From contig DYGG01000029.1 of assembly GCA_020724775.1 (NCBI GenBank), positions 1 to 41,253 of the forward strand: DNA of 41,253 nucleotides, written 5' to 3'. A program made the position numbers and the translations under genes. Below, piece by piece: positions 7,331-37,901 of the stretch. This stretch comes from Ignavibacterium sp. (lineage in GTDB: Bacteria > Zixibacteria > MSB-5A5 > GN15 > PGXB01). Position 1 is the stretch's first letter. The number at the start of each line of letters is the position of its first letter. The notes below the pieces were generated by a model. That model did no database searches. It worked only from the letters and a program-made list of their open reading frames with translations, and was not told the DNA's origin.

Positions 7331-8395
7331 CTATTTCTCTAATTCCGCTTTAAGAAAATCAATCACTTTCACCGGCGTCGGGTCAACGTTGTTCAACACA
7401 GCCAAATAGAAAGACATAAAATCGCCCAACTGTATCAGCGAAAAAAGCCTTCCCAGCGTGAAATCGCCGTGTGAAAATATATCGACTACTTCTATCCGGG
7501 TATTCTCGATAATCTGGCGGACAATCTCCATCCGTCGCTTTATCCGGTCGTGGTCGTCGTTATCACGAAGGTAAACGACTATCAGTTTATCTCGATATGG
7601 CTCGATAACATTCCACCCGACCAGTTCGTTATGATTGAACTCTGCAAACTGATTATTGAAGGCAAGACACTTGGCGTTTTCGCAGATTTGCCCCTTCCAG
7701 CGGGTGCCGACGGCGTCAGTCAGTTCCGGACCCGAATATACGATCGGGAGCCGATTGTGAAGTTTCCATGCCAGCGCCTTTGCCGGATTCTTGTCGGTAC
7801 CTACTTCGACGGCGTAACGGTCGCGATACGCCTTCAGCCCCATCGCCAGTTCCTCAATGTCGCCGTCGACCTTGCCGGTCAGCCCCAGTTTCGCCAAAAG
7901 ATAAAGCAGCGGCACAAAAGAAAACCCCAGAGCCGCGCGCGGCGGGTATCCTTTCGGAAGTTCCACCAGCGGGTATTTCTTCTTGCGGGCTATCTCCGCC
8001 ACCTTTCCCCCGGAGGTGATACAGGCGATTCTGGCTTTCTTTTTCATCGCCTCATTCATCGCCGAAAGAGTCTCTTCGGTATTCCCGGAATACGAAGAAA
8101 TCACCACCAGTGACTTATTATTGGCAAAAGCCGGGAGACGATAGTGCCGGCAGATATAGAAGGGTATCTTGAATGACCCTTGCAGATAAGAGCGGACCAG
8201 GTCGCCTCCAATGGCAGAACCGCCCATGCCCGCGACTATGACGTTGCTGATACCTGCATATTCTTTCCTGTCAATCTTTATCCCTTTCCCGATCTGCATT
8301 GCCTGCTCAATCTGTTCCGGAAAACAATAGATTTTTTCATACATCCCCTGGGGGTCGAGTTCTTTCATTTTCTCGATATCATTAAGCAAGTCCAT
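7331..8395 (-). CDS. Bifunctional phosphoglucose/phosphomannose isomerase
   Basis: A 354-residue SIS-domain isomerase that interconverts glucose-6-P or mannose-6-P with fructose-6-P in the cytoplasm. Two SIS halves are visible. The first carries GMGGSAIGG (about 56-64) and SSYSGNTEET (about 100-109), both sugar-phosphate contacts. PPRAALGFSF at about 151 and FNHNELVGW at about 246 are marks of the archaeal/bacterial bifunctional family. A GGGAG-type ribosome site precedes the ATG. It lies 15 bases after ptsP and is probably the last gene of that operon, linking phosphotransfer to hexose-phosphate entry. It converges with the COG3014-like gene; no clear terminator was seen in the 35-base gap. 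Confidence 0.9.
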   Translation of the reverse strand: MDLLNDIEKMKELDPQGMYEKIYCFPEQIEQAMQIGKGIKIDRKEYAGISNVIVAGMGGSAIGGDLVRSYLQGSFKIPFYICRHYRLPAFANNKSLVVISSYSGNTEETLSAMNEAMKKKARIACITSGGKVAEIARKKKYPLVELPKGYPPRAALGFSFVPLLYLLAKLGLTGKVDGDIEELAMGLKAYRDRYAVEVGTDKNPAKALAWKLHNRLPIVYSGPELTDAVGTRWKGQICENAKCLAFNNQFAEFNHNELVGWNVIEPYRDKLIVVYLRDNDDHDRIKRRMEIVRQIIENTRIEVVDIFSHGDFTLGRLFSLIQLGDFMSFYLAVLNNVDPTPVKVIDFLKAELEK

Positions 8396-8410: not shown

Positions 8411-10159
8411 TTATTGTAAAGACATATTGTATTCGAGAAGTCGTCCTTCGACTTCTTTCAGATTCTTCATTCTCAGGACTTCATCGGCCAGTCGCACGGC
8501 GTCGTCACAGCGCATTTTAGAAACTATCTGGCAGGCGTTGAATAGGCGGGAAGGACTCATCGACAACTGATTGATACCCATTCCAACCAAAAGTGGAATA
8601 TTGAGCGGGTCGCCGGACATTTCACCGCAAACAGCAATCGGTATATTATGGCTCCGGGCGGCATCGATGGACAACTTGATAAGCCGCAAAACCGCCGGAT
8701 GGAGAGGATTGAAAATTTTTGCCAGTCGCTCATTGTCGCGGTCGGCGGCAAGAGTGTACTGGGTCAGGTCATTGGAGCCGATAGAAAAGAAAGATACTCT
8801 CTCGGCGAGAGCCTCGGCCGCTACCGCCGCCGAGGGCACCTCAATCATTACACCCACTTTTATTTCCTGGTCAAACGCCATTTTCTCTTTGCGCAAGTCA
8901 ACCATGGAGCGCCGCAGAAGGCTCATCGCTTTGCGCAACTCGGCAATGTCGGCTATCATCGGCAGGAGAATTCTGATATTTCCCCGTTTCGACGCCCTCA
9001 GTATGGCTCGCAACTGGTCGCGGAAAATTTTTGGCATATCCAGCGCCGCTCTTATCCCGCGCCAGCCGAGAGCGGGATTGCTTTCTCTCAACTGACGATC
9101 ATCGGAGAAATATTTGTCGGAGCCGAGGTCAAATGTCCGAATCACTACCGCTTGCGGGTGATATCGTGCCGCGACACGGTCATATACTTCAAACTGCTGG
9201 TCCTCCGAGGGAAATTTGCCGTTTTGAAGATAAAGAAACTCTGTGCGGTACAAGCCGACGCCGATTTTTTTCGACGCCAGAATATCGTCAATCGGACCGG
9301 GGAGGTCAATATTGGCGGCCAGTTCAATTTCCTTGTTGTCAGCGGTGCGGGGCGGAAACTGGGGAAGTTTCTGCAGCCGCTCAATATGCCGGCCGGTCAG
9401 TTTCACTTTGCGACGGCGAAGTTCACTCCATTCCTCCGCCGGCAGATTGACCCGCACAATCCCCTCATCCCCGTCAACGACCACCCGGTCGCCTGACCTT
9501 ATTTTGAGATGCGCCTGCTCAACGCCCACTACGGCAGGTATGAGAAGCGAGCGGGCAATCAGAGCCATATGCGTCACAGCGCTTCCGCCGGTGGTAACAA
9601 TTGCCGCCGCCTTCCTTTCATATAGCGAGAGAACCTCTCCTGGTGTGAACTCTTTGGCGACAAATACGCAATCGGGCGGGAAAACCGCTTCCTGATGTTC
9701 TCCCAGTCCTGCAAGATGATTGATTATTCGCTGCGACACCGCTTCGATATCATAGACCATCTGGCGCATATACGGGTCAGGCGAGACCCGCAGGGGAGAC
9801 ACGGTCTCCTCAATCAGGCGGCTGTAAACATACGCGGCGTTCTTCCGGTCAGACTTAATTTCCTCTTTCACCCGCTTCAAAAATTCCCGGTCGGAGGCAA
9901 TCATCATCTGCGAGTCAAAAATTTTGGCGACCGGCCCGCCTATCTTCTGCCCAGCCGATTTCCGCCATTTCTCCAGTTCCACCAGAGTCTCATCGACAGC
10001 GTTGTCCAGTTTCTCGATTTCATTATCTACCTGCGATTCCGGTATCAGATGTTCCTCGATTGACTGCACCCATTTGAATATAATGCGGGCTTCTCCGAAT
10101 GCGAATCCCCCTGATGCCGGGATTCCCTTCAACAATAGGCTCTTTTTCAGTGTCGTCAT
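8411..10159 (-). CDS. ptsP: PTS enzyme I, phosphoenolpyruvate-protein phosphotransferase
   Basis: Cytoplasmic enzyme that takes phosphate from phosphoenolpyruvate onto a histidine and passes it to HPr. The 582-residue protein has the standard order: an N-terminal HPr-binding domain (about 1-145), a swivelling phosphohistidine domain with GGSAVTHMALIAR (His197 is the likely phosphorylated residue), and a C-terminal TIM barrel with the PEP-site GWRGIRAAL, SIGSNDLTQY and the catalytic cysteine in VCGEMSGD. No N-terminal GAF domain is present, so it is a classical EI in form. HPr is encoded 60 bases upstream on the same strand. No EIIA, EIIB or EIIC gene lies in the window, so its role here may be regulatory; this is inference. 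Confidence 0.93.
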   Translation of the reverse strand: MTTLKKSLLLKGIPASGGFAFGEARIIFKWVQSIEEHLIPESQVDNEIEKLDNAVDETLVELEKWRKSAGQKIGGPVAKIFDSQMMIASDREFLKRVKEEIKSDRKNAAYVYSRLIEETVSPLRVSPDPYMRQMVYDIEAVSQRIINHLAGLGEHQEAVFPPDCVFVAKEFTPGEVLSLYERKAAAIVTTGGSAVTHMALIARSLLIPAVVGVEQAHLKIRSGDRVVVDGDEGIVRVNLPAEEWSELRRRKVKLTGRHIERLQKLPQFPPRTADNKEIELAANIDLPGPIDDILASKKIGVGLYRTEFLYLQNGKFPSEDQQFEVYDRVAARYHPQAVVIRTFDLGSDKYFSDDRQLRESNPALGWRGIRAALDMPKIFRDQLRAILRASKRGNIRILLPMIADIAELRKAMSLLRRSMVDLRKEKMAFDQEIKVGVMIEVPSAAVAAEALAERVSFFSIGSNDLTQYTLAADRDNERLAKIFNPLHPAVLRLIKLSIDAARSHNIPIAVCGEMSGDPLNIPLLVGMGINQLSMSPSRLFNACQIVSKMRCDDAVRLADEVLRMKNLKEVEGRLLEYNMSLQ

Positions 10160-10219
10160 TGGATTAATTCTCAGTGTTCTGTCAAAAAATAGCGGTATCT
10201 AACATCAAAAGCAACTCAA

Positions 10220-10495
10220 TTATAAATCTTTGAGGTCGCCGAAACCGGAGCCGACCAGTTTCACCAAATCCTCCAGAGCGCTCTGCTCGTCCTCTCCCTC
10301 AGCGTAGATAATCAGTTCGCTGCCCTGCTCGGCGGCTAACATCATCACCCCCATTATCGATTTGCCATTCACCTTCAACCCTTGTTTTTCCACGAAAATA
10401 TCTGATTCATATTTGGAGGCATGGCTGACAAACATTGCCGAGGGGCGCGCATGCATTCCCAGGCGATTAACAATTCTGACCGACTGCTGCACCAT
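10220..10495 (-). CDS. ptsH: PTS phosphocarrier protein HPr
   Basis: A 91-residue HPr that receives phosphate from enzyme I at His15 (RLGMHARPS) and hands it to EIIA-type proteins. Ser46 in GKSIMGVMM lies at the position that HPr kinase/phosphorylase uses in other bacteria, so serine regulation is possible, although no hprK is in view. Length and fold match the family (usually 85-90 residues). The ATG follows the dprA stop by four bases, and ptsP lies 60 bases downstream. Confidence 0.93.
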   Translation of the reverse strand: MVQQSVRIVNRLGMHARPSAMFVSHASKYESDIFVEKQGLKVNGKSIMGVMMLAAEQGSELIIYAEGEDEQSALEDLVKLVGSGFGDLKDL

Positions 10496-10499
10496 AGAA

Positions 10500-12642
<2,143 letters not shown>

Positions 12643-23679: not shown

Positions 23680-24933
23680 TTATTTTTCAATTGATTTTAT
23701 TCGGAGATAAATGGCTATTACCAGAATTGTAATCAGAAGAGTGGCGATTCCGAGCCCTTTGCGCCGGAAATAATACTCCTCAATCTTCTTTTCCCCCTGA
23801 ATGGCGATATTCTGCGCTGAGGTTATGCCCGGTTCGGCGACTTTAGACACCGCTTCCGGGTCGAAAGTATGAACCGCCGTGCCGGTCTGAATAATCGCCT
23901 GCTTGACTTCATTGAGCGCAAAACGCTCGTCGGTCACCAGCATCCCTTTCATATCCGCGGTATCAATCCTGGCAAGGGCGGCATTATAGATGGAATTGAT
24001 GTTAACCAGCGTCTCATAAATTCTGGCGGCGGCAACATAACCGCCGGTGCCGTCGTCAGGGGCATGGCACTGCACGCAGAGCGATGAATCAGAGACGCCG
24101 ACCCAGTGCATCTTAGGCTTCTCAATAAGATGATTGGAATGACAGGTCTCACATTCGGGATATCCCATGGCGTCAAAGGCTTCTTTATGCGGCGACTTGG
24201 CGAAGTTATCGGCAATCAAGGTGTGACAGAGCCCGCAGACGGCCGACAGCGATGTCACCCCGGGCGGAGTGGCGCCGTGATTTCCGTGGCAGTCGTTGCA
24301 CGCCGGCGCGCTAATATCTTTCTTGTCCAGTAACGCCCTGCCGTGGACCGACCGGATATATTTCTCATGCTGGTCGGTCGTAATGCCGTAACCGCTCATA
24401 TAGTCGGCGTCAGCGTGACAATTGGCGCAGGTCTTGGGAATATTTATCGGGTACACCGCTGAGGTCGGCTCCGCCGCCGGCTGGATGCTGTGAGCCGTAT
24501 GACAGGAAATGCAGGTCGCTACTTTGGTATCCCCCTGTTCAAAAAGCCTCTTACCGTGTACTGAAGTTTTGTACTTGTCCAACTGGTCGGTCGGAAGTGA
24601 GGGATTGAATTTAACCATGTAAGCCGGATTGCTGTGGCAGGAGGCGCAGAACTGATTGACCTCTTTGGCTCCGGGAACGCCTTTATACCCTTTGCTCTTG
24701 CGGACAGCGTCCATATCGTCGAGAGTCGGGTCGCCGCCATGGCAGGAAGCGCAACTCAGCCCCGCTTTGCTGTGAATATCTTGCTGGAACTGTACTGAGG
24801 GGGCGTCAAGACCTTCCTCCCAAGAACTATGGCATTCCAGACACTGGTCGGCGGCAAGAGCGGCCACGGTCAATACCCCCAGCCAGAGCGGAAGAAGAAT
24901 CAAAACGTTTCTGAGACCGGAATTTGTTTTCAT
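23680..24933 (-). CDS. Nine-heme periplasmic cytochrome c with C-terminal membrane anchor
   Basis: A 417-residue secreted protein: signal peptide (about 1-28, ending ALAADQ), nine CXXCH motifs at Cys31, 61, 96, 141, 169, 212, 233, 261 and 286, a helical region without haem (about 300-385) and one C-terminal membrane helix (about 391-410) with a basic tail. The start is ATG 24933, which overlaps the cytochrome b stop as ATGA; the frame continues upstream but without a signal peptide. Tight coupling to the cytochrome b gene suggests it replaces cytochrome c1 or f as electron acceptor of the Rieske/b complex. The C-terminal anchor fits that place. Haem count is seen; complex membership is inferred. 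Confidence 0.88.
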   Translation of the reverse strand: MKTNSGLRNVLILLPLWLGVLTVAALAADQCLECHSSWEEGLDAPSVQFQQDIHSKAGLSCASCHGGDPTLDDMDAVRKSKGYKGVPGAKEVNQFCASCHSNPAYMVKFNPSLPTDQLDKYKTSVHGKRLFEQGDTKVATCISCHTAHSIQPAAEPTSAVYPINIPKTCANCHADADYMSGYGITTDQHEKYIRSVHGRALLDKKDISAPACNDCHGNHGATPPGVTSLSAVCGLCHTLIADNFAKSPHKEAFDAMGYPECETCHSNHLIEKPKMHWVGVSDSSLCVQCHAPDDGTGGYVAAARIYETLVNINSIYNAALARIDTADMKGMLVTDERFALNEVKQAIIQTGTAVHTFDPEAVSKVAEPGITSAQNIAIQGEKKIEEYYFRRKGLGIATLLITILVIAIYLRIKSIEK

Positions 24934-26039
24934 TCGAGTATATATCCCAGTATGGTTAGTACCGCAATAAAAGCCAACACCGCCCACCCGAAGGCGATAA
25001 TCAGGGTCGGTTTCTTGCCGGAGGAAAATTTCCCCGCAAGAAAAGGAATCAATGTCCAGACAATCCCGCCCGCTGTGAGGATTATAATGCCGGCCAGTTC
25101 ACCTTCGATAAAGAGAAGGTGCGCTGGCAGGACTTTTAGCGCCTGAAAGGCGAACATGAAATACCATTCCGGCCTGATAACCGGCGGCGGCGGCGCAAAG
25201 GGGTCCGCCTTCTGACCCAGGGGCCAATGAACCACCCCGATGCCATCCGGGAAAAAGACTGCCAGGACCGCCAGCAGGTTCAGCATAATAAGCCAGACCA
25301 GTAATTCCCGCATGATGAAGTTAGGGAAAAAGGGGCGATATTTTTTGAATTGCGGGTTCGCCGCCCATTCCAAAGGCTCCGACATCCCCTGACGCTGAAT
25401 GAAAAAGAGATGCAATGACAAAAGCACCGCGAATACTCCGGGAAGTACCGCCACATGCAGACCGAAAAATCTTCCGATAGTGGCGCCGGTGACATCCTCG
25501 CCGCCGCGCATCAATTTCATCAGAAAATCCCCTACACCGGGAATGGCCCCCGCCATACCGGTGCCGACACGCGTGGCGAAGAATGACAATTCGTTCCAGG
25601 GAAGAAGATAACCGGAAAATCCAAAAGCCAGCGCCAGCGCCAGAAGAAATATTCCGGTAACCCAGGTCATCTCGCGCGGCTTGCGATAGGCATGCGTGAA
25701 AAAGACCGAAAACATATGTATGAAAGCCGCCAGAATCATCAGGTTGGCTGACCAGGAATGGATGGAACGAATGAGCCAGCCAAAGGAAACTTCCGAAATA
25801 ATGAATTTGACCGACTCATAAGCCGAATCGGCGCCGGGGCGGTAATAAAGGAGCAATAATATTCCGGTCACCACCTGCACCACAAAGAAAAAGAGGGAGA
25901 TGCCCCCGAAGTAGTACCAAAAGGAATGAGAATGCTGCGGCACCACCTTGTGCGACATATAATCGACCAGCGTCTGAATATGCAGACGCTCATCGACCCA
26001 GTGGAAAAGACGATTCTCTCTGGCGATTTTGTCTGCCAA
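24930..26039 (-). CDS. Cytochrome b of a Rieske/cytochrome b complex, b6/subunit IV fusion
   Basis: A 369-residue integral membrane quinol oxidase subunit with about eight helices. The haem-ligating pairs are HSW...FIH (13 residues between) and FGLHVAVLP...SLH (14 residues between). The 14-residue spacing in the second helix is the b6f type, whereas bc1 has 13. The Qo-site motif is RPEWYF. The single chain joins the b6 and subunit IV parts. The cysteine that binds haem ci in b6f is not seen in the first helix (WYYFGGISLF). It starts with TTG, two bases after the Rieske stop, with AAAGG upstream, and overlaps the nine-heme gene by four bases. Confidence 0.92.
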   Translation of the reverse strand: MADKIARENRLFHWVDERLHIQTLVDYMSHKVVPQHSHSFWYYFGGISLFFFVVQVVTGILLLLYYRPGADSAYESVKFIISEVSFGWLIRSIHSWSANLMILAAFIHMFSVFFTHAYRKPREMTWVTGIFLLALALAFGFSGYLLPWNELSFFATRVGTGMAGAIPGVGDFLMKLMRGGEDVTGATIGRFFGLHVAVLPGVFAVLLSLHLFFIQRQGMSEPLEWAANPQFKKYRPFFPNFIMRELLVWLIMLNLLAVLAVFFPDGIGVVHWPLGQKADPFAPPPPVIRPEWYFMFAFQALKVLPAHLLFIEGELAGIIILTAGGIVWTLIPFLAGKFSSGKKPTLIIAFGWAVLAFIAVLTILGYILE

Positions 26040-26041
26040 GA

Positions 26042-26500
26042 TTAACCTTTCGCTTCCGCGACAAAGATGTCGCCGGTGGCATTATCCAGATGCACGGTAT
26101 AAGCAGTGAGCGGTCGCGGCGGCGGTCCCGAAATGTTGCGCCCTTCCAGGTCGTAGCGGCCGTTATGACAGGCACACCAGATTATCGACAGGTCTTTGCG
26201 ATACTGCACCGTACAGTCAAGATGGGTGCAGACGGCATTAAAGGCTTTCAATTCATTCTCTGGAGTAATCAAGATGATGCCAACATTTCTGCCGAACTTG
26301 AATATCCGTGATTTTTTTTCATCCTCCTGAAGTTCCTTCAGTTTGAAAGGGAGTTTTACCTGCGAAACATTTGCCTCTCCGGAAGGGGGAGGAATGACAT
26401 ATCTATAAACGGGATAGAAGACCGACCCGAGAAAGGCAACCAATCCTCCGCCAATCAGCCAGTTCAGGAAGTTTCTTCTATCATCTCTGATTTCGTCCAA
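26042..26500 (-). CDS. Rieske iron-sulfur protein
   Basis: A 152-residue 2Fe-2S subunit that takes the first electron from quinol at the Qo site. The N-terminus has a twin-arginine-type signal anchor (RRNFLNWLIGGG, helix about 13-30). The cluster-binding loops are CTHLDC (Cys91, His93, Cys96) and CACHNG (Cys109, Cys111, His112). Cys91, His93, Cys109 and His112 should bind iron and Cys96-Cys111 form the disulfide. The Pro loop GPPPRPL follows. Translation starts at TTG with a strong GGAGG five bases upstream. First gene of the unit Rieske - cytochrome b - nine-heme - NapC-like, driven by the promoter at 26546-26574. Confidence 0.93.
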   Translation of the reverse strand: MDEIRDDRRNFLNWLIGGGLVAFLGSVFYPVYRYVIPPPSGEANVSQVKLPFKLKELQEDEKKSRIFKFGRNVGIILITPENELKAFNAVCTHLDCTVQYRKDLSIIWCACHNGRYDLEGRNISGPPPRPLTAYTVHLDNATGDIFVAEAKG

Positions 26501-26545
26501 GAATCCTCCAACAGAATTTCACAAATATAACCGTTCTTGTCCGGT

Positions 26546-26574
26546 ATTATAGAAAATAGCGGCGGATTTTTCAA
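26546..26574 (-). promoter_or_regulatory. sigma70-type promoter of the Rieske/cytochrome b operon
   Basis: TTGAAA (26569-26574), a 17-base spacer and a perfect TATAAT (26546-26551) on the minus strand. The predicted start is near 26539, about 40 bases before the TTG start of the Rieske gene. It separates this operon from the octaheme gene upstream. Confidence 0.75.
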
Positions 26575-26591
26575 CAGCAAAATCGTTCAGG

Positions 26592-28037
26592 CTATTCGCC
26601 GTACCGTTTTTCATAGAACTTCTTGATTTTTTCCAGCGCATCTTTGCCCATGCCATCGCGGTGCCACTGGTGTCCCGGAATCTCATAGAGATATTTATCC
26701 ATCAATTCTTTTGCCATCTCTTCGCCGGCGACTTCTTTCAGTTCCGGGATAAATTTGGTGTAAAAATGCTTTCCGACTTCATACAATCCGTGCCACCAGG
26801 CGTAATCAGGTCCCTGCATAGAAGCGCCGTGACGCGCCCGCCGTCCCTCATGATGCCATATCTCGTACCAGGTCCATTCGATCGGGTCGTCAAAGTCCGG
26901 CGGTGTGATTTTTCCGGCCGCTTTCAGTTCATCGATAATCGCTTTGCCGGGGCGGGCAAATTTCTCGTTGTACAACACCACTAAATCATCGAACTGGGCG
27001 TAGGCGCCTTCCACAAAAGTTTTCTCATGACATTGCGTACAGACATTTTGCATCTTCTGCCGCCGCTCCTGCCAGGACAGGGTCTGCTTTACTTTTTTCT
27101 TTTCGCCTTCGCCGAGGCTGTGCATTTCGCCCGCCTGCGGAAGCAAAGGAGCATCCCCCAGAATATCCTCTTTGGAATCATCTTCATATACCACCATATT
27201 CAACTTCACTGAAATCGGCGGCCGCAGTGTCCAGGAGATTCTCTCGCCGACATCGTGCGTAACCCCTTCTTTCCCCGCCTCCGACATATGGCATGAAGCG
27301 CAGGTTGGTCCCGTGAAATATTCCTTGCCGGCGCGCCACGGCTTCGCATCGAGATTCAGCTCCTCGCGATTGGCATGGTAGAGAACGCCATGTTTTGATT
27401 CGTTCCAGACCTCGATTTGAGGATGGTCGGGACCGAGATGACACTTGCCGCAGGCTTCCGGCTGACGTGCCTGCTTCACCGAAAACTCATGCCGGGCATG
27501 GCAGGCCGAACAGGAGCCCCAGGAACCGTCAGGATTAATTCTTCCCATGCCGGTGTTAGGCCAGGTATCGGGAGTGGGACGTCCGTTGGCGTCGACTTTT
27601 ACAATGGAACCGTGACATTGACGGCATCCCACCGCCACAGCCGGCTCGCCGCCGACCACTTCTCCCAGAAGATTATCAAGGGAGCCGAGAATCTGCGCCG
27701 CTTTAGCATGATGAGACCCTTTCTGCTCCGAGTATTCTTTCTCATGGCACTGCGCGCAGTCTTTGGGTGATACGATTATCGCTATCCGCTCCCCATTGTG
27801 CAGGAAACCATCGACATCATCCTTGCCGGCCTGATGGCAATCTATACAGGTCACACCGGCCTCATTATGTTTCGATTTTTCCCACTGGCCCACAATCCCC
27901 GGGGAGATGGTCCGGTGACACGTGATACATGCTTCGCCGCTTGAACTCTGCGCTGATATTTCTGATGGTACGACTGCCAGAAAAAATGCCAAAAGTACCA
28001 TCGCCGTTCCAATATTGTACCTTCTTGTTCCCAACAC
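26592..28037 (-). CDS. Octaheme cytochrome c of the hydroxylamine oxidoreductase (HAO) family
   Basis: A 481-residue periplasmic protein with a signal peptide (about 1-30) and eight CXXCH motifs (Cys37, 64, 94, 138, 176, 196, 246, 333). The C-terminal segments WHHEGRRARHGA and GPDYAWWHGLYEV are hallmarks of HAO-type octaheme enzymes. These act on hydroxylamine, nitrite or hydrazine depending on the subgroup. Tyr412 lies in the segment that resembles the one bearing the cross-linking tyrosine of oxidising HAO, but only an alignment can tell whether it is equivalent. Start is GTG 28037 behind a perfect AAGGAGGT. A CRP/FNR-type dyad lies about 105 bases upstream. The Rieske gene follows after 91 bases with its own promoter. 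Direction of catalysis is not decided by the sequence. Confidence 0.88.
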   Translation of the reverse strand: MLGTRRYNIGTAMVLLAFFLAVVPSEISAQSSSGEACITCHRTISPGIVGQWEKSKHNEAGVTCIDCHQAGKDDVDGFLHNGERIAIIVSPKDCAQCHEKEYSEQKGSHHAKAAQILGSLDNLLGEVVGGEPAVAVGCRQCHGSIVKVDANGRPTPDTWPNTGMGRINPDGSWGSCSACHARHEFSVKQARQPEACGKCHLGPDHPQIEVWNESKHGVLYHANREELNLDAKPWRAGKEYFTGPTCASCHMSEAGKEGVTHDVGERISWTLRPPISVKLNMVVYEDDSKEDILGDAPLLPQAGEMHSLGEGEKKKVKQTLSWQERRQKMQNVCTQCHEKTFVEGAYAQFDDLVVLYNEKFARPGKAIIDELKAAGKITPPDFDDPIEWTWYEIWHHEGRRARHGASMQGPDYAWWHGLYEVGKHFYTKFIPELKEVAGEEMAKELMDKYLYEIPGHQWHRDGMGKDALEKIKKFYEKRYGE

Positions 28038-28412
28038 GTTACCTCCTTCGGGCGATTTTCACCGCCGCCACAAGTAAGTAAGATTATTTCTCAGATATAA
28101 ATCGCCGCAAAATAGATAAAATCAATCTCAATTCATTGACTTATGTCAAGATTAATGAAATTGAATTTCTTTGTCAACCTTACATTGCTTCCAAATAGCA
28201 TCAAAGTTATCCACATTTGCGGCATTCTCAACGGTTGCGCCGAATTTCGTATAATCTCTATTTTTGACTGACCGACCTGTACTGCCCGGTCAGGAATTGC
28301 CAAAAGCAGATTTTGACGGAAACAAATCTTGCCCCTGCGGCGTTGCAAGCGTTGATAGAGAAATCAATGTTTAAAGCGAATAGTCAGTGACTCATTGAGA
28401 AAGGACAAGAAT
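28038..28412. other. divergent intergenic region between the octaheme gene and tpx
   Basis: 375 bases without a supported gene. It holds the TTGAC-N4-GTCAA dyad and -10 box of the octaheme gene. Towards tpx there is a seven-base-pair inverted repeat (28268-28274 with 28287-28293) and a TTGAT-N6-ATCAA repeat at about 28351-28366. A TATAAT at about 28250 lacks a good -35 partner. The tpx promoter is not clear. Confidence 0.4.
28109..28149 (-). promoter_or_regulatory. CRP/FNR-type binding site and -10 box of the octaheme HAO-like gene
   Basis: TTGAC-TTAT-GTCAA is a perfect 5-4-5 dyad at 28136-28149. It is close to the FNR consensus TTGAT-N4-ATCAA and to related sites of NO- or redox-sensing CRP/FNR regulators. 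A -10-like TATTTT lies at 28109-28114 on the minus strand. Transcription would start near 28102, placing the dyad centre at about -40.5, the classic class II activator position. The regulator is not in the window. Confidence 0.6.
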
Positions 28413-28931
28413 ATGCAGGAAAGAACAGGGCAATTCACCTTCGGCGGCAAGCCGTTTACCATGGTGGGACCGGAACTCAGAGTCGGCGACAGGGCTCCCG
28501 AATTCGAACTTACCGACAACGATATGAAACCGTTCCGTCTCTCCTCTCAAGCGGGAAAGACCGTCATTCTCTCGGTAGTCTCCTCGCTGGATACCTCCAC
28601 CTGCGATATCGAAACGCGCCGTTTCAATCAGGAAGCGGAAAGACTCGGTGACGATGTCGTCATATTGACCATCAGTATGGACCTGCCGTTTGCGCAGAAA
28701 AGATGGTGCGGCACCGCCGGTATTAATCGAGTAAAGACTCTATCTGATTATAAAGAGGCCACCTTCGGGAAAAATTACGGCGTCCTCATAAGAGAGTTGT
28801 ATCTACTCGCCCGGACCGTTTTTGTCGTGGACAGCAAGGGTGTCATAAGATATATCCAGCGCGTGAACGAAGGCAGTCACGAGCCGGACTATAAGGCGGT
28901 TCTCAACGCCCTGGCTGAACTGGCTAAATAA
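28413..28931 (+). CDS. tpx: Thiol peroxidase (Tpx, atypical 2-Cys peroxiredoxin)
   Basis: A 172-residue peroxiredoxin that reduces hydrogen and alkyl peroxides with thioredoxin. The peroxidatic cysteine lies in SLDTSTCDIETRRFN and the resolving cysteine in KRWCGTAGI, the Tpx-specific pair. The chosen ATG at 28413 has AAAGGA a few bases upstream; a TTG 18 bases earlier is unlikely. It has no clear signal peptide, so it should act in the cytoplasm, although Tpx is periplasmic in some species. It starts a plus-strand stress cluster with ferritin (57 bases later), an AhpD-like protein and a methionine sulfoxide reductase. Confidence 0.94.
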   Translation: MQERTGQFTFGGKPFTMVGPELRVGDRAPEFELTDNDMKPFRLSSQAGKTVILSVVSSLDTSTCDIETRRFNQEAERLGDDVVILTISMDLPFAQKRWCGTAGINRVKTLSDYKEATFGKNYGVLIRELYLLARTVFVVDSKGVIRYIQRVNEGSHEPDYKAVLNALAELAK

Positions 28932-28988
28932 TCAATTTTGAAAGCAGAATTTAGGACTCACAGAACTGAAATTAGAAAGGATAAAACA

Positions 28989-29477
28989 ATGATTAGCGAC
29001 AAGATGCAAAAAGCGCTCAACGACCAGTTGCGCGAAGAGTACTTTTCATCCTATCTCTATCTCTCTATGGCGGCTTACTTCCATTCACGGAATCTTGACG
29101 GTTTCGCCAACTGGATGATGAAACAGTCGGATGAGGAAAAAGGGCACGCCATGAAGTTCTACGAGTATATCAATGAGCAGCAGGGGAAAGTGGTCCTCGG
29201 CGCTCTGGAGAAACCGCAGACTGATTGGGCGTCGCCTCTGGCAGCCTTTCAAGATGCTTACAAGCACGAGCAGAAGATCACCGGACTGATTCACAATCTG
29301 ACCGACATGGCGATGGCGGAGAAAGACCACGCCACCCATATCTTCCTGCACTGGTTCGTGGAGGAACAGGTTGAGGAAGAGTCCAATGTCTCCAAAGTCG
29401 TGGAGATGCTGAAAATGGTCAATGACCATCCCCAGGGACTTCTTATGCTCGACCGCGCCCTGGGCGAGAGAAAATAA
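28989..29477 (+). CDS. ftnA: Bacterial non-haem ferritin
   Basis: A 162-residue four-helix iron-storage protein that oxidises Fe(II) at a diiron centre and stores it as mineral inside a 24-mer. Ferroxidase ligands are visible: Glu in LREEYFSSYLYLSMA, Glu and His in SDEEKGHAMKFYEY, and Glu/Gln in WFVEEQVEEE. There is no haem-binding Met as in bacterioferritin. ATG 28989 is used, with AAAGGA eight bases upstream. A strong terminator follows 40 bases after the stop. Pairing with tpx suggests protection from iron-driven peroxide chemistry, fitting a cytochrome-rich cell. Confidence 0.94.
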   Translation: MISDKMQKALNDQLREEYFSSYLYLSMAAYFHSRNLDGFANWMMKQSDEEKGHAMKFYEYINEQQGKVVLGALEKPQTDWASPLAAFQDAYKHEQKITGLIHNLTDMAMAEKDHATHIFLHWFVEEQVEEESNVSKVVEMLKMVNDHPQGLLMLDRALGERK

Positions 29478-29580: not shown

Positions 29581-29940
29581 ATGGGCATAGAAAAGATTGA
29601 AAAATTCCGTGAAGAGCGAGAGCGATTGAACGAAATCGTCATGAAATATGCCGGCACCAATATCAAGCGGTTTTACAATATTGACTGGCAGGTTTACAAA
29701 GATGGCGCTCTTCCGGCAAAAACCAAAGAACTTCTCGGGTTTGTGGCGTCGATGGTTCTGCGATGCGACGACTGCATTTTGTATCATCTCCTTCAATGTC
29801 ATCAGTTGGGAATAAGTAGTGAAGAAATAGAGGAGGCGACCTCTGTCGCCCTGATAGTCGGCGGCTCCATTGTCATCCCCCATATGCGACGGGCTCTTCA
29901 GGCGTGGGATGACCTCCAGCAAACGGCTACTGCTAAATAG
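29581..29940 (+). CDS. AhpD-like carboxymuconolactone decarboxylase family protein
   Basis: A 119-residue all-helical protein of the CMD/AhpD superfamily. The redox motif is CDDC with a following His (LRCDDCILYHL, about residues 61-71), as in AhpD-type disulfide reductases and peroxidases rather than in true decarboxylases. The short length fits the single-domain family. It starts 31 bases after the ferritin terminator and is followed after 14 bases by the GAF-type reductase gene, so these two probably form one transcript. A thiol-based antioxidant role is inferred from the CXXC-His and neighbours; the electron donor is unknown. Confidence 0.82.
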   Translation: MGIEKIEKFREERERLNEIVMKYAGTNIKRFYNIDWQVYKDGALPAKTKELLGFVASMVLRCDDCILYHLLQCHQLGISSEEIEEATSVALIVGGSIVIPHMRRALQAWDDLQQTATAK

Positions 29941-29954
29941 AGGACCCCAGACCT

Positions 29955-30425
29955 ATGAACACAAAGAGAGAGATTTTCGACAGCATCAAAAAGGAAATCG
30001 ACCTTCTCCTTTCGGACGCCGGCTCCCGCGACCAGAAACTTGCTGGCATCTGCAAAATCTTAAACGAGCGACTGCCGCACTATGACTGGGTGGGATTTTA
30101 TCTGGTCAATCCAGCCCATCCGCGCGAACTTCTACTGGGACCTTTTGTCGGCGCGCCGACCGAACATATCAGGATTCCTTTCGGCAAAGGAATCTGTGGC
30201 CAGGCTGCCGCAAACAAAGAGGTCTTCGTGGTCGATGATGTCACCCGGGAAACCAATTACCTTTCCTGCAGCCCCTTTGTCAGGTCGGAAATTGTCCTCC
30301 CGATTCTCCACGACGGTAATATTGTTGGGGAACTGGATATTGACTCTCATATAGCCGGCAATTTTGATATTGATGACAGAGTTTTCCTGACCGAACTCTG
30401 CAAGAATCTCTCTTTGATATTCTGA
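29955..30425 (+). CDS. msrC: Free methionine-(R)-sulfoxide reductase, GAF-domain type
   Basis: A 156-residue single GAF-domain enzyme that reduces free Met-R-sulfoxide in the cytoplasm. GKGICGQAA (Cys81) and NYLSCSPFVRSEIVLP (Cys105) match the fRMsr family. The two cysteines are 24 residues apart, the same spacing as the catalytic/resolving pair of characterised enzymes. The third family cysteine, ten residues before the first, is absent here (His71). The VGELDIDS segment closes the domain. It lies 14 bases after the AhpD-like gene. A weak five-base-pair hairpin follows the stop. Confidence 0.85.
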   Translation: MNTKREIFDSIKKEIDLLLSDAGSRDQKLAGICKILNERLPHYDWVGFYLVNPAHPRELLLGPFVGAPTEHIRIPFGKGICGQAAANKEVFVVDDVTRETNYLSCSPFVRSEIVLPILHDGNIVGELDIDSHIAGNFDIDDRVFLTELCKNLSLIF

Positions 30426-30606: not shown

Positions 30607-31260
30607 ATGGGCGAGTTTGTGTACCGCAACCGACATTACAAAATTGATGAGGATGGTTTCCTTCTTAATCCCGCTCAATGGGATTCCGATTTTGCCGAGG
30701 GAATGGCGCCAAAACTGGAAATTCCCCATGGTCTGTCCGGCGAGCACTGGCGCGTTATCAATTTTATTCGCGAAACTTACCTGAAAATTGGTCGCTGTCC
30801 TCTGGTTTATCAAACCTGCAAATTGAACGGCATACATCTGAAGGAATTGAAAGCGCTCTTTCCTACCGGCTATCTGCGCGGCGCCTGTAAACTTGCCGGA
30901 ATCAGTTACCGGGAAGGGTTTATGGAGGGGTTCCCGTCGGAAGGGGAGAAACCCGACCATGACGGTACCGCTGAAAAGAGTTATGAAGTCGATGTCCGGG
31001 GTTTTCTGATTGACCCGCACGACTGGGACGAGCAATTTGCCATTTTCAAAGCCTATGAAATGAAAATGCCGGAAAAACTGACCGAGGGACACTGGCAGGT
31101 TATCAGATTTCTGAGGGAATCATTCAAGAAGAACCATCGAATCCCCACCATATATGAAACTTGCGAGTACTTGCGCCTCAGTATTGACGAATTAGAAAAA
31201 TTATTTCCCGATGGATATCATCGGGGTGCCGTCAAGATATCCGGCCTGCGGGTACGATGA
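30607..31260 (+). CDS. Tandem DsrC/TusE-fold protein lacking the C-terminal cysteine
   Basis: A 217-residue protein made of two DsrC/TusE-like domains (about 1-105 and 125-217). Each has the family core: a C-terminal half with HWRVINFIRETY or HWQVIRFLRESF, then LFPTGY or LFPDGY and RGACKLAG or RGAVKISG. In DsrC and TusE the last-but-one residue is a redox cysteine carrying sulfur; neither domain ends that way. Domain 1 keeps a cysteine (Cys94) at the position of the second DsrC cysteine, while domain 2 has Val209. It may be regulatory, like the RspA-type DsrC relatives, rather than a sulfur carrier. GGGAGA precedes the ATG. The 181-base gap upstream shows no clear promoter. No dsrAB or tusBCD in the window. 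Confidence 0.8.
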   Translation: MGEFVYRNRHYKIDEDGFLLNPAQWDSDFAEGMAPKLEIPHGLSGEHWRVINFIRETYLKIGRCPLVYQTCKLNGIHLKELKALFPTGYLRGACKLAGISYREGFMEGFPSEGEKPDHDGTAEKSYEVDVRGFLIDPHDWDEQFAIFKAYEMKMPEKLTEGHWQVIRFLRESFKKNHRIPTIYETCEYLRLSIDELEKLFPDGYHRGAVKISGLRVR

Positions 31261-31282: not shown

Positions 31283-32227
31283 TTATCGTTTGATAGTGGG
31301 AGCCAGCGGGGCATCGGAGGGGACTCCCGACTTTTTCCGCTCAATATCTTTCATCTTCTCCCGGACAAACTCAATTCGCTCGGAATCTTCTTTTGGCGCG
31401 TACTTAAGATAATCCTGGAATGCCGCCAGGGCTTCCTCATAGTTCTTCATCCACTCGTAGGTTGCTCCCAGATTGTAAAAAGCGTTAGCCATCTGTGGTT
31501 TCAGAATAGAGGCTTGCTTGAAATCCTCCGCCGCGCCGGCATACTTCTTCAGGTCGTAACGAACCTGCCCCCGGCTGTAATACGCCTCGGCATATCCCGG
31601 ATTCAGTTCCGCGGCGCGAGTGTAATTCCGCTCCGCCATTTCATCATTGTTTCTCTGGCGATAGGCATGTCCCAGATTCAGGAAGGCGTGGGCGTTGGTT
31701 GGATTCAGTCGCACCGCATCAAGAAAGTCGTTGATGGCTAAGTCATATAGCCCTTTACTGAAGTGCAAAATTCCCCGATTGTAGTACGCCGGCGCATACT
31801 GGGAATCGACCGATATGGTCAGCGAATAATCATTAATCGCTTCTTCAACATTACCGCTCCGCTCACGTGCCAATCCCCGACTGTAATATGCATCCGTTAT
31901 GGTCTTATCAAGAGCAATCGCCAGGGAAAAGTCTTTGATGGCATCGTCATATCGTCCCCATGCCCCGTTTATAATTCCCCGCTGGACAAGAAAATCGGCG
32001 CTTCCCGGTGAAAAAGAGAGTGCCCGGTCAACCGCCCGCAATGCCTGGGTGTAATTCTTCTGCTGAAAATATTCGGTCGCTTTCTGGGAATAAAATTGCG
32101 AGGAATCGACCTGCGCCAGTGATAGTTTCCCGCCGCCGGTCAATCCGAGCGAAATTGCCAGAACAATGGCCGCCCTTCTCATGGCCGACATCTTACATCT
32201 ATCAAACATTATAATTCTGTTCTTCAT
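31283..32227 (-). CDS. Secreted TPR-repeat protein
   Basis: A 314-residue protein with an N-terminal signal sequence (hydrophobic core AAIVLAISLGLTGGG) and about seven tetratricopeptide repeats from about residue 45 to 285, each with the pattern AYYSRGLARERSGNVEEAI. The tail is charged and ends PLAPTIKR. TPR arrays are protein-binding scaffolds; the partner is unknown. ATG codons occur at residues 1, 7, 13 and 16; starting at 13 or 16 gives a more normal signal peptide, and no option has a good ribosome site, so the start is uncertain. A TATAAT lies upstream at 32274-32279, with TTGATG 19 bases before it. Confidence 0.82.
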   Translation of the reverse strand: MKNRIIMFDRCKMSAMRRAAIVLAISLGLTGGGKLSLAQVDSSQFYSQKATEYFQQKNYTQALRAVDRALSFSPGSADFLVQRGIINGAWGRYDDAIKDFSLAIALDKTITDAYYSRGLARERSGNVEEAINDYSLTISVDSQYAPAYYNRGILHFSKGLYDLAINDFLDAVRLNPTNAHAFLNLGHAYRQRNNDEMAERNYTRAAELNPGYAEAYYSRGQVRYDLKKYAGAAEDFKQASILKPQMANAFYNLGATYEWMKNYEEALAAFQDYLKYAPKEDSERIEFVREKMKDIERKKSGVPSDAPLAPTIKR

Positions 32228-35072: not shown

Positions 35073-37877
35073 TTAGCGGTAGCCAAAGACTTCCGCCCAG
35101 ATAATAAGGAGAATCAGGGAAATCCCAATGAAGAGAGCAATTGAGCCAAATATCCTCAATCCCCGGACTACAACCGGCGGCAATGGCTCTACCAGTTTTT
35201 TTCCGAATTTTCGCGACTTAATCAACTCGGCATATTCACGGGGGCGGTCCTGCTTCAGTTCTTCCAGCGGGACCCGTCCAGTGAATATGACGGTATCCAT
35301 TGGGAATTTGTCAGGACGGAAATGCGTATTGAAGAAATGGACCGTGAATATAAATGCGACCGCCAGCAGGGCTTCATCGGAATGTATTATGGTTGCGACA
35401 TTAACGAACCATCCCGGTAGAAAGAGGGTAAAAAACTCAGGAAACCAGAGAATCAGGCCGGTGCTTCCGATTATGGCGACCCCCCAGAAAACCGCAAAAT
35501 AGTCAAATTTCTCCCAGTAGGTCCAGCGCCCGTATTGGGGTCGAGGCCCCCTGCCCAGAAACCACTTAACTGTTCCGACCGCTTCCCGGATATCGGTTTT
35601 GTTGGGAAGCACGGAATTCTCGGAGAAAAGAAACTTCCTCCAGGACAGTTTCGAGCGCTTCTTCTTTCGCGCTACGTCGTAGATATGCGCCCCGAAATAG
35701 AAGAAGGTGATAAGGGCGCAGATGCGGTGAATATATCCGGCCGATTCAAATCCCCCCAGAGTCTCCGAAATCCATTGCGCCCATCCCAGGTAAGAGAACT
35801 TGAGAGTCATGCCGGTGATGGCAAGGCCGAGAAAACTGATGATGACCAGGATATGGAGCCGCCGCGGCAGACTCTCGAAGCGCAGATACTCTAACTTACC
35901 GCGCTCCTGCTGACGGAGTTTCTTGTGCTGACGCATCATCTGGAAGGAGCGGGGGAGCCACATCAGGGTATGCGTCCCGGCCACGGTCAAGGTTCCCACC
36001 AGAAGAATTGTCATAAACCAGAAGGTGTAAAACAGAATCGGATATTTCTGCTTGTCATGATGCGTGGCGTGGGTCAGATAACCGGCGAAACGTCGGTGCG
36101 AGCCGGCATGACACTGACCGCAGGTGGCGACAATATTCTGCCGCGAGAGAGTCGATTTGGGATTATATGTGGGCAATATATTATGCGCGCCGTGGCAGTC
36201 GTCGCATTTTGCCGCCGCCGTGTATCCTAATTTGGAGACTTTCCCGTGGAATGTGTCGAAATAAGTCTCTGTCACATCTTTATGACAGTGCCCGCATTGG
36301 CTTATAATCAAGGTCTTGAAATCGTCTTTGTCGGTGCGCGAAATCGTGTGCGACTGATGGCAGTCACTGCAGGAAGGGAGAGGTTTCTCGCTGTCGGAAA
36401 CGGCCGGGGAATGGATGCTCTGGACATACTGCTCGTAAATGCCGTTATGGCATCGCCCGCAAGTGTTGGGGAGATTGTCATGGTTTACGCTCGAAACAGC
36501 ATTGTCTTTGGGCAGGACATGATGAGCTGTGTGGCAGTCGGTGCACATTGCCGTCACTACCAGACCGCTCTGCAAGAGCCCTTTGCCGTGAATACTCTCG
36601 GTATAATTCTCCAAGATATTCCGCTGCTCACCGGTATATCGAACTGCCGCCTTATTCCCTTCGCGATGACAGTTCCCGCAAAGGTCGGGCACATTGGTCG
36701 GATAGGTCGGCGACTGCGGATTGCGGTGGTCTTTGGTGCCGTGTGTCCCGTGACAATCCCGGCACAGAGGGGCATTCTGATCTCCCCGGTCCGCCAGAGC
36801 GCCATGCGTGCTGGTGGCATATGTGGTTAGCACCTCCTCATGACAGATAGAGCAGTCAACGCGGGGCGACACGGTGGTGCAGGGGCGCTCCAGCGACGGG
36901 CTCACACCGGTATGGCATTGGGCGCAGGCTATTTTGCGATGAATCGACCCGCGTGTTTCCAATGTGTCAACATACATCGAAATTACCTGACCGTCCTTGA
37001 TTGCCGTCAGGTTCTTATTGGTATGGCAGGAGAGGCAGTCTTTGTCGGCCATCCCCTGGTCGTAGAATATCCTCCTTATTTCATGAGGCGAATGACAATC
37101 GACACAGACCGGGACTTTATTCGGCTCTTTCTCCCAGAGTTCCCCACGGATAACTTTGCGATGCACCTGCTCAATGCGGAAGTGACATTTCTCGCACGTC
37201 CTGGCAACATTGCCGCGATAGATGCTCGATTGCGGGTCGGTGTGAGGGAGAACATTGTGCGAGGTATGGCAATCGGTACAGACTGCCGTAACTATTAACC
37301 CGCGCTTAAACAGTCCTTCGCCGTGAATACTCTCGGAATAATGGTCAAGAATGCTGTCCTGCGGAATGTTGTACGTCTGGCTGACCGCAGTTCCTTCTTT
37401 GTGGCAGTAACCGCATATAAATGGAATGTTGAAACGTGCCACTTTCGACTCCTGCGATTGCACCGGCAGGATGTCATGTGCTCCATGACACGTCCAGCAC
37501 CGGGGCGCCAGGGGGGCGCCGGCGCGGGCGGTCTGCCCGTGAAGGCTCTTTGCGAACTGCTCCCCAATCGTATCGTGGCAGATACTGCAATCAACCGGGT
37601 CGGCGGTCTCATTGTGCGGAAACTCCGTTCCGGCAAGGTCGCCGTGACAGGTGACACACTCCAGTTCCCCATGAACCGACCGCGCAAAGATGTCCTGCTT
37701 TACGAAAAGAGATACCGTTTTCCCCTGACGGGTCTTGCTGAGGGTCTCATCGGCATGACAGACCAGACAGTCATCATTACTTTGCGCTTGCGCCCGCGGG
37801 GAAAAAGTGACCAGAATTCCCGCCGCCAGGAGTATTAACCACCAGAAACAGCCCCTCTTGATATCGCCAAATATCAT
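35073..37877 (-). CDS. 19-heme cytochrome c fused to a cytochrome b membrane domain
   Basis: A 934-residue protein: signal peptide (about 1-32), 19 CXXCH motifs between Cys37 and Cys586, then a membrane domain (about 612-930) of several helices with paired histidines (LPRRLHILVI, GYIHRICALI, YFGAHIYDVA, IIHSDEALLA, FTVHFFNTHF). The membrane part resembles HydC/FdnI-type dihaem cytochrome b, so electrons could pass between quinones and the haem chain. The layout recalls CbcL of Geobacter, a nine-heme c domain joined to a b domain. Haems 1-8 and 9-16 are a tandem duplication. The start is ATG 37877 with AGGA upstream; TTG 37898 lies three bases after the preceding gene and is possible. Likely role: a membrane entry or exit point for long-range electron transfer. 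No porin is seen. Confidence 0.88.
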   Translation of the reverse strand: MIFGDIKRGCFWWLILLAAGILVTFSPRAQAQSNDDCLVCHADETLSKTRQGKTVSLFVKQDIFARSVHGELECVTCHGDLAGTEFPHNETADPVDCSICHDTIGEQFAKSLHGQTARAGAPLAPRCWTCHGAHDILPVQSQESKVARFNIPFICGYCHKEGTAVSQTYNIPQDSILDHYSESIHGEGLFKRGLIVTAVCTDCHTSHNVLPHTDPQSSIYRGNVARTCEKCHFRIEQVHRKVIRGELWEKEPNKVPVCVDCHSPHEIRRIFYDQGMADKDCLSCHTNKNLTAIKDGQVISMYVDTLETRGSIHRKIACAQCHTGVSPSLERPCTTVSPRVDCSICHEEVLTTYATSTHGALADRGDQNAPLCRDCHGTHGTKDHRNPQSPTYPTNVPDLCGNCHREGNKAAVRYTGEQRNILENYTESIHGKGLLQSGLVVTAMCTDCHTAHHVLPKDNAVSSVNHDNLPNTCGRCHNGIYEQYVQSIHSPAVSDSEKPLPSCSDCHQSHTISRTDKDDFKTLIISQCGHCHKDVTETYFDTFHGKVSKLGYTAAAKCDDCHGAHNILPTYNPKSTLSRQNIVATCGQCHAGSHRRFAGYLTHATHHDKQKYPILFYTFWFMTILLVGTLTVAGTHTLMWLPRSFQMMRQHKKLRQQERGKLEYLRFESLPRRLHILVIISFLGLAITGMTLKFSYLGWAQWISETLGGFESAGYIHRICALITFFYFGAHIYDVARKKKRSKLSWRKFLFSENSVLPNKTDIREAVGTVKWFLGRGPRPQYGRWTYWEKFDYFAVFWGVAIIGSTGLILWFPEFFTLFLPGWFVNVATIIHSDEALLAVAFIFTVHFFNTHFRPDKFPMDTVIFTGRVPLEELKQDRPREYAELIKSRKFGKKLVEPLPPVVVRGLRIFGSIALFIGISLILLIIWAEVFGYR
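36333..37040 (-). repeat. second copy of an eight-heme unit within the 19-heme gene
   Basis: Residues about 280-515, motifs at Cys281, 318, 342, 372, 400, 445, 473 and 503. All lie 244 or 245 residues after the matching cysteine of copy one. Shared text includes TESIHGKGL and CTDCHTAHHVLP. Confidence 0.88.
37068..37772 (-). repeat. first copy of an eight-heme unit within the 19-heme gene
   Basis: Residues about 36-270, motifs at Cys37, 74, 97, 127, 155, 200, 228 and 258. Shared text with copy two includes SESIHGEGL and CTDCHTSHNVLP. A partial third copy (Cys528, 558, 586) matches motifs 3-5 in spacing (30, 28) and text (CHGAHNILP with CHGAHDILP). Confidence 0.88.
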
Positions 37878-37901
37878 GAACTGCTTTTCCTGCGCCAAAA
37901 T

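Follow-up and report, generated by a model that had tools for sequence, protein, structure and literature searches.

The window, i.e., the whole stretch of 41,253 nucleotides that was analysed, carries a gene whose product consists of two DsrC copies fused end to end, without the sulfur-carrying tail (Table 1). Two matches to PF04358 (Pfam DsrC) were obtained (E 1.7e-41, 141 bits against a cut-off of 24.9), each domain scoring above the cut-off alone, as well as two matches to TIGR03342 (NCBIfam TusE/DsrC/DsvC; 107 bits against 53.5), in agreement with the tandem arrangement proposed in the preliminary description. With its 217 residues and two domains, the protein departs from the usual architecture of the DsrC superfamily, which is a single domain of about 105–115 residues. 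The AlphaFold model, computed with 68 homologues as input, shows two helical domains and a disordered linker (mean pLDDT 84, pTM 0.51). The top PDB matches found by Foldseek are the DsrC chains 3or2_C and 2v4j_C, with a TM score of 0.90 by target length for each single domain, and no PDB chain spanning both domains was found. The DsrC fold is thus predicted for each half. Comparison with the sister species reveals purifying selection (dN 0.07–0.08, dS 0.65–0.92, dN/dS about 0.08–0.12), which indicates that the gene is maintained. A chance or mis-annotated ORF was ruled out by the two independent profile matches, the dN/dS of about 0.1 and the about 100 homologues.

Table 1. Coordinates of the tandem gene, its neighbours and related features at other loci
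Feature	Locus	Positions	Strand	Evidence or remark
Thiol-peroxidase-like redoxin, first gene of the co-directional group upstream	window	28395..28931	+	Pfam Redoxin, 7e-27
Ferritin	window	28938..29477	+	Pfam Ferritin, 9e-42
Carboxymuconolactone decarboxylase (CMD)/AhpD-like protein	window	29581..29940	+	Pfam CMD, 6e-15
GAF-domain protein	window	29955..30425	+	Pfam GAF, 2.5e-9; 182 bp upstream of the tandem gene
Tandem DsrC-like protein (P0001), 217 aa, ATG start	window	30607..31260	+	ORF call and profile matches
First DsrC domain, residues about 7–100	window	30625..30906	+	PF04358, 75 bits
Cys64 codon	window	30796..30798	+	Cys in 68/68 tandem proteins
Cys71 codon	window	30817..30819	+	Cys in 61/68; found too in the normal DsrC of the same genome
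Cys94 codon, equivalent of DsrC CysB	window	30886..30888	+	Cys in 68/68
Flexible/disordered linker, residues 103–122	window	30913..30972	+	AlphaFold pLDDT <50
Second DsrC domain, lacking both CysB and CysA	window	30970..31251	+	PF04358, 69 bits
Cys186 codon, half 2, same domain position as Cys71	window	31162..31164	+	Cys in 67/68
TPR protein, convergent, group boundary	window	31283..32227	-
NifS-SelD fusion	L107	10668-12878
NifS-SelD fusion	L046	9404-11644
NifS-SelD fusion	L050	9324-11525	-
NifS-SelD fusion	L126	1583-3262	-
Small TGA-containing gene	L149	10702-11016
Small TGA-containing gene	L152	2895-3209
Small TGA-containing gene	L154	10684-10998
Small TGA-containing gene	L147	1978-2292

Cysteine conservation was counted over an alignment of 68 tandem members. 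Half 1 ends in GACKLAGISYREGF, with the second family cysteine (CysB, Cys94) present and an aromatic residue at the position of the sulfur-carrying C-terminal cysteine (CysA). Half 2 ends in GAVKISGLRVR-stop and has neither of them, the chain stopping before the CysA position. At the CysB motif GAC(K/R)xAG, the cysteine of half 1 is replaced by V, L or I in half 2. The loss of CysA from both halves and the restriction of CysB to the first, both read earlier from the sequence, are thus borne out; what that account missed is the conservation of Cys64, Cys71 and Cys186. Since three further cysteines are conserved, the loss of CysA does not mean that thiol chemistry is lost. No fifth conserved cysteine column is found among the 68 aligned members. 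The invariant cysteines, Cys64 and Cys94, are confined to half 1. Most of the single DsrCs compared have an alanine at position 64, so that Cys64 is tandem-specific relative to them, the P. aerophilum (Pyrobaculum) protein 1ji8 having a cysteine there. The most conserved stretch of the tandem family, LFPDGYHRGAVKIAGLRVR at the C-terminus of half 2, is yet cysteine-free. A divergent subfamily (L067-L069) has CysB in both halves and lacks Cys64. A putative metal site made of the four cysteines was considered; Cys71 is absent from 7 of the 68 proteins.

The Pfam matches upstream of the tandem gene confirm its position after antioxidant-type genes. The GAF protein looks, by eye, like a free methionine-R-sulfoxide reductase, and the whole redoxin/ferritin/CMD-AhpD/GAF arrangement recurs upstream of the tandem gene in the sister species (L037). 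The promoter and terminator scan in the window stayed at chance level, which leaves the operon limits there unproven. No Hdr or hydrogenase gene lies beside the window copy. As described before, dsr and tus genes are absent from the window; dsrA and dsrB lie on another contig (C17) of the source genome (3.07 Mb, 87 contigs), together with the normal DsrC, which has 105 residues and ends in GACKVAGLAKPTGCV. The antioxidant group is flanked by genes which appear, by eye, to encode cytochrome b, Rieske-type and multihaem cytochrome proteins (window 24930-28037 and 35073-37898, both on the minus strand).

Spread and origin of the tandem family

The search for further two-domain DsrC proteins and their neighbours, suggested beforehand as a check, gave about 100 tandem loci with varied neighbourhoods, in records titled as at least 10 phyla. 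Scanning public genomes with an alignment as query provided 80 of these loci, essentially full length; a single-protein query gave none. The record titles include Zixibacteria, Acidobacteria, Desulfobacterota groups, Electryonea, Hatepunaea and Calditrichaeota, as well as Abyssobacteria, Gemmatimonadota, Planctomycetota, Chloroflexi and Bacteroidetes, among which single assignments may be wrong because most carriers are metagenome-assembled genomes. Tandem proteins occur in 20 of 60 close genomes, with a maximum of five full-length copies in one genome (G011), some copies adjoining each other. The source genome itself has a second paralogue, 53% identical, on contig C2, the gene under study being on C64. 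The features described at first for this gene are correct, and the picture was incomplete in that it belongs to a multi-copy family rather than being an isolated oddity.

In the domain tree, which is built on a short alignment with SH-aLRT as its sole support, all tandem halves are split from all single DsrCs by one branch (SH-aLRT 99), and halves 1 and 2 are mostly apart. This separation fits one old duplication, which, followed by fusion, probably gave rise to the tandem family. A viral origin was rejected: no tandem DsrC was found in viral contigs, and the sole match in a phage record is weak, single-domain and of 44% coverage.

Tandem DsrC carriers usually encode DsrAB. Among the 60 relatives, dsrA is present in 16 of the 20 carriers versus 10 of the 40 non-carriers (Fisher p 8e-5, kinship ignored). 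In a random sample of 199 Acidobacteriota-type genomes, dsrA was detected in 20 and the tandem protein in three, all three with dsrA; altogether, all seven acidobacterial carriers have dsrA, against this background of 20/199. When 43 carriers from many groups are considered, DsrA scores above the cut-off in 32, and partial dsrA/B genes are seen in four more. Some carriers clearly lack DsrA, including a complete Gemmatimonadota chromosome (L143/G069). The tandem protein appears to represent a widespread, undescribed two-domain branch of the DsrC family, found mostly in sulfite-/sulfate-reducing bacteria. No published description was found in the literature searched, most subscription journals lying outside it, and the words “tandem” and “cysteine” are absent from a Dsr phylogenomics paper covering over 195,000 metagenomes.

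Gene neighbourhoods across the family

A simple ORF caller was used to delineate the neighbouring genes and BLAST to group them; the key ones were then checked against profiles. At L047, the tandem gene is adjacent to and co-directional with an hdrCBA-mvhDGA-hypB operon, in which HdrA2 and a VhuG-like protein are identified by NCBIfam. Sulfhydrogenase-type hydrogenase operons have the tandem gene inside or at their end at L081 and L106, HydB of L081 being sulfhydrogenase-like; the HypA, HypD, HypE and HypF labels in hydrogenase operons were given by eye. In the zixibacterial carriers, 10 of 25 hydrogenase large-subunit loci have a tandem gene within 8 kb, where fewer than one would be expected, although the genomes are related and independent events number about six.

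DsrK-like (365 bits) and DsrM-like genes accompany a divergent tandem DsrC at L067 and L069. A single DsrC is also found at L067 (10629-10973, minus strand; GAYRLAGLPRPSGCL), with CysA present and a tyrosine at the CysB position. Its neighbours, at 7658-8308, 8477-9829 and 9845-10555, comprise DsrM-like and DsrK-like genes and the gene of the tandem protein with CysB twice. Judging from these sequences, the two DsrC cysteines are possibly split there between the CysA-only single DsrC and the tandem protein.

Several loci are related to sulfur or selenium metabolism. At L132 (742-2610, plus strand), a cysteine desulfurase (TIGR01977, 412 bits, above cut-off) and a tandem DsrC form one ORF, which is preceded by what looks, by eye, like an Rrf2-type regulator gene. 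NifS-SelD fusions, already known and rarely found (PMC4561486), adjoin or lie close to the tandem gene at four zixibacterial loci. Pfam-checked neighbours further include an APS kinase directly beside the tandem gene (L110), a sulfate-type ABC transporter around it (L090 and L119; SBP, ABC and CysA C-terminal domains) and, at L149, a nearby protein of the rhodanese/rubrerythrin type. In Desulfobulbus-type loci of four genomes, a small gene with an in-frame TGA lies downstream of the tandem gene, and the sequence after the TGA is strongly conserved, which makes its product a candidate selenoprotein. The DsrE-like label first given by eye to this small gene was dropped, with neither a Pfam nor a PDB match. 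Many other neighbourhoods have no obvious link to sulfur or electron transfer and contain outer-membrane, protease and Tex-type genes or sensor kinases.

Possible roles of tandem DsrC

The best explanation, which we hold tentatively at a little under an even chance, is that tandem DsrC, itself derived from DsrC, works as a carrier of the thiol-disulfide or sulfane-sulfur type, half 1 being the active one (Cys94/Cys64) and half 2 a cysteine-poor docking domain. In the scheme that we infer, from the Cys64–Cys94 chemistry to docking, carrier role and partners, half 1 would be the chemically active half, where Cys94 and the tandem-specific Cys64 would replace the CysB and C-terminal CysA of DsrC and cycle between a dithiol and a disulfide or persulfide/trisulfide. 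Half 2, having lost both DsrC cysteines and kept the LFPDGYHRGAVKIAGLRVR surface, would serve for docking. The paralogues, each beside its own enzyme set (Hdr/hydrogenase, DsrMK-like, desulfurase/SelD or antioxidant group), might connect the local enzymes with the thiol pool, to which normal DsrC belongs, by relaying electrons or sulfane sulfur between the two; the window copy would then have the peroxidase/ferritin/AhpD-like/GAF group as its partners. Such a carrier fits the invariant Cys64 and Cys94 found in half 1 only, the loss of CysA, the cysteine-poor half 2, the link to DsrAB and the Hdr, DsrK, hydrogenase and desulfurase neighbours. DsrC is reported to interact with FlxABCD-HdrABC (PMC10504309), and a thiol-disulfide carrier of unknown identity has been postulated for cases without DsrC (PMC6687939). 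Counting against this explanation are the window copy, which is not beside Hdr or hydrogenase genes, the many unrelated neighbourhoods and at least one complete carrier chromosome without DsrA.

The carrier appears somewhat more likely than the regulator or adaptor suggested at first, a thiol- or sulfide-sensing role which is possible, if on the doubtful side. In the case of a regulator, the HTH-like DsrC core would bind DNA or another regulator, Cys94/Cys64 would act as a switch and each paralogue would control its own operon. Many diverged paralogues do lie at unrelated operons, often beside NtrC-type response regulators or histidine kinases, but the gene is usually within or at the end of operons, its upstream neighbour being divergent in only 31 of 100 tandem loci. 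A putative role in transcription regulation has been reported for DsrC (PMC7787665 citing Venceslau 2014). The similarity to the LexA-like HTH is faint (Pfam E 0.024–0.054; Foldseek probability 0.84, E 0.88), and the putative second HTH helix of half 2 is conserved and acidic (LEELExLF), unlike an operator-specific helix. Likewise, the basic C-terminus of half 2 is invariant, yet neither half bears a marked net positive charge, and direct fusion to a cysteine desulfurase (L132) would be unusual for a regulator.

That same fusion and the four loci with NifS-SelD speak for sulfur or selenium delivery, in which the tandem protein would accept persulfide or perselenide from cysteine desulfurases on the way to SelD or metalloenzyme maturation. 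The adjacency of HypB and, in the Desulfobulbus-type loci, the downstream small gene with its conserved TGA and the nearby SelB gene (close in three of the four) point in the same direction. SelD scores above the cut-off in 38 of 43 tandem carriers, but also in 53 of 60 zixibacterial relatives, so that its co-occurrence has little power there; some carriers (G070, G071) have no SelD above the cut-off, and most tandem loci have no selenium gene nearby. Delivery seems unlikely, and a selenium-only role was set aside, the neighbours being suggestive but SelD near-universal in the relatives. Very improbable in our judgement is an inactive DsrC mimic, a decoy or competitor on the DsrC sites of DsrAB or DsrMK which would tune the flux without chemistry of its own. 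The docking-type motif kept in both halves, the absence of CysA from both and the tight link to DsrAB genomes would suit it; the absolute conservation of Cys64 and Cys94 points instead to chemistry, and carriers without DsrA exist.

Compared with DsrC (gamma protein, DsvC), each tandem half has the same fold and family profile, CysB is retained in half 1 and the protein occurs mostly in the same genomes as the DsrC of dissimilatory sulfite reduction. It differs by its two domains per chain, the lack of a CysA arm, the extra conserved Cys64 and Cys186, and its several paralogues encoded outside the dsr cluster. TusE, of the same family, has CysA and lacks CysB, whereas the tandem protein keeps CysB without CysA and reaches 62.8 bits against the TusE equivalog cut-off of 191; the desulfurase adjacency or fusion at a few loci nevertheless recalls the tRNA 2-thiouridine sulfur relay. 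Cysteine-poor DsrC-like proteins with neither CysA nor CysB, known in work on DsrC as the “RspA” type, reportedly have a proposed regulatory role. A viral DsrC without the last cysteine has also been described (PMC4164917). In the tandem protein, which is cellular and two-domain, the absence of both DsrC cysteines holds for half 2 only; this half is fused to a cysteine-bearing one and conserves Cys186. The tandem genes that belong to hdr-mvh operons or adjoin DsrK-like genes are reminiscent of the DsrC-FlxABCD-HdrABC system, with the difference that Cys64–Cys94 would presumably be used rather than CysA–CysB.

In sulfite/sulfate reduction, DsrC has a key role in carrying electrons and sulfur, and bacterial Hdr complexes have no agreed disulfide substrate. 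The tandem family, multi-copy, extending beyond the usual sulfate reducers and present in Hdr/hydrogenase operons, provides named candidate carriers. A more specific proposal, which deserves more doubt than belief, is that the Hdr-, DsrK- and sulfhydrogenase-type enzymes of DsrAB-bearing bacteria are served by tandem DsrC as a hitherto unnamed protein heterodisulfide/trisulfide carrier. Within one domain, a Cys64–Cys94 pair would stand in for CysA–CysB, with a dedicated paralogue for each partner complex. In one lineage the classical cysteines would be split between two proteins encoded beside DsrMK-like genes, a single DsrC with CysA alone and a tandem with CysB in each half. Current models label the tandem proteins as TusE/DsrC/DsvC family, so that genomes will be misread when DsrC-family matches are used as a DsrC/TusE marker. 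Two single-DsrC matches (G010:C63:20726-21010 and G020:C55:16385-16681) contain one internal TGA, which in G020 (L031) is probably just the normal stop after TGCV.
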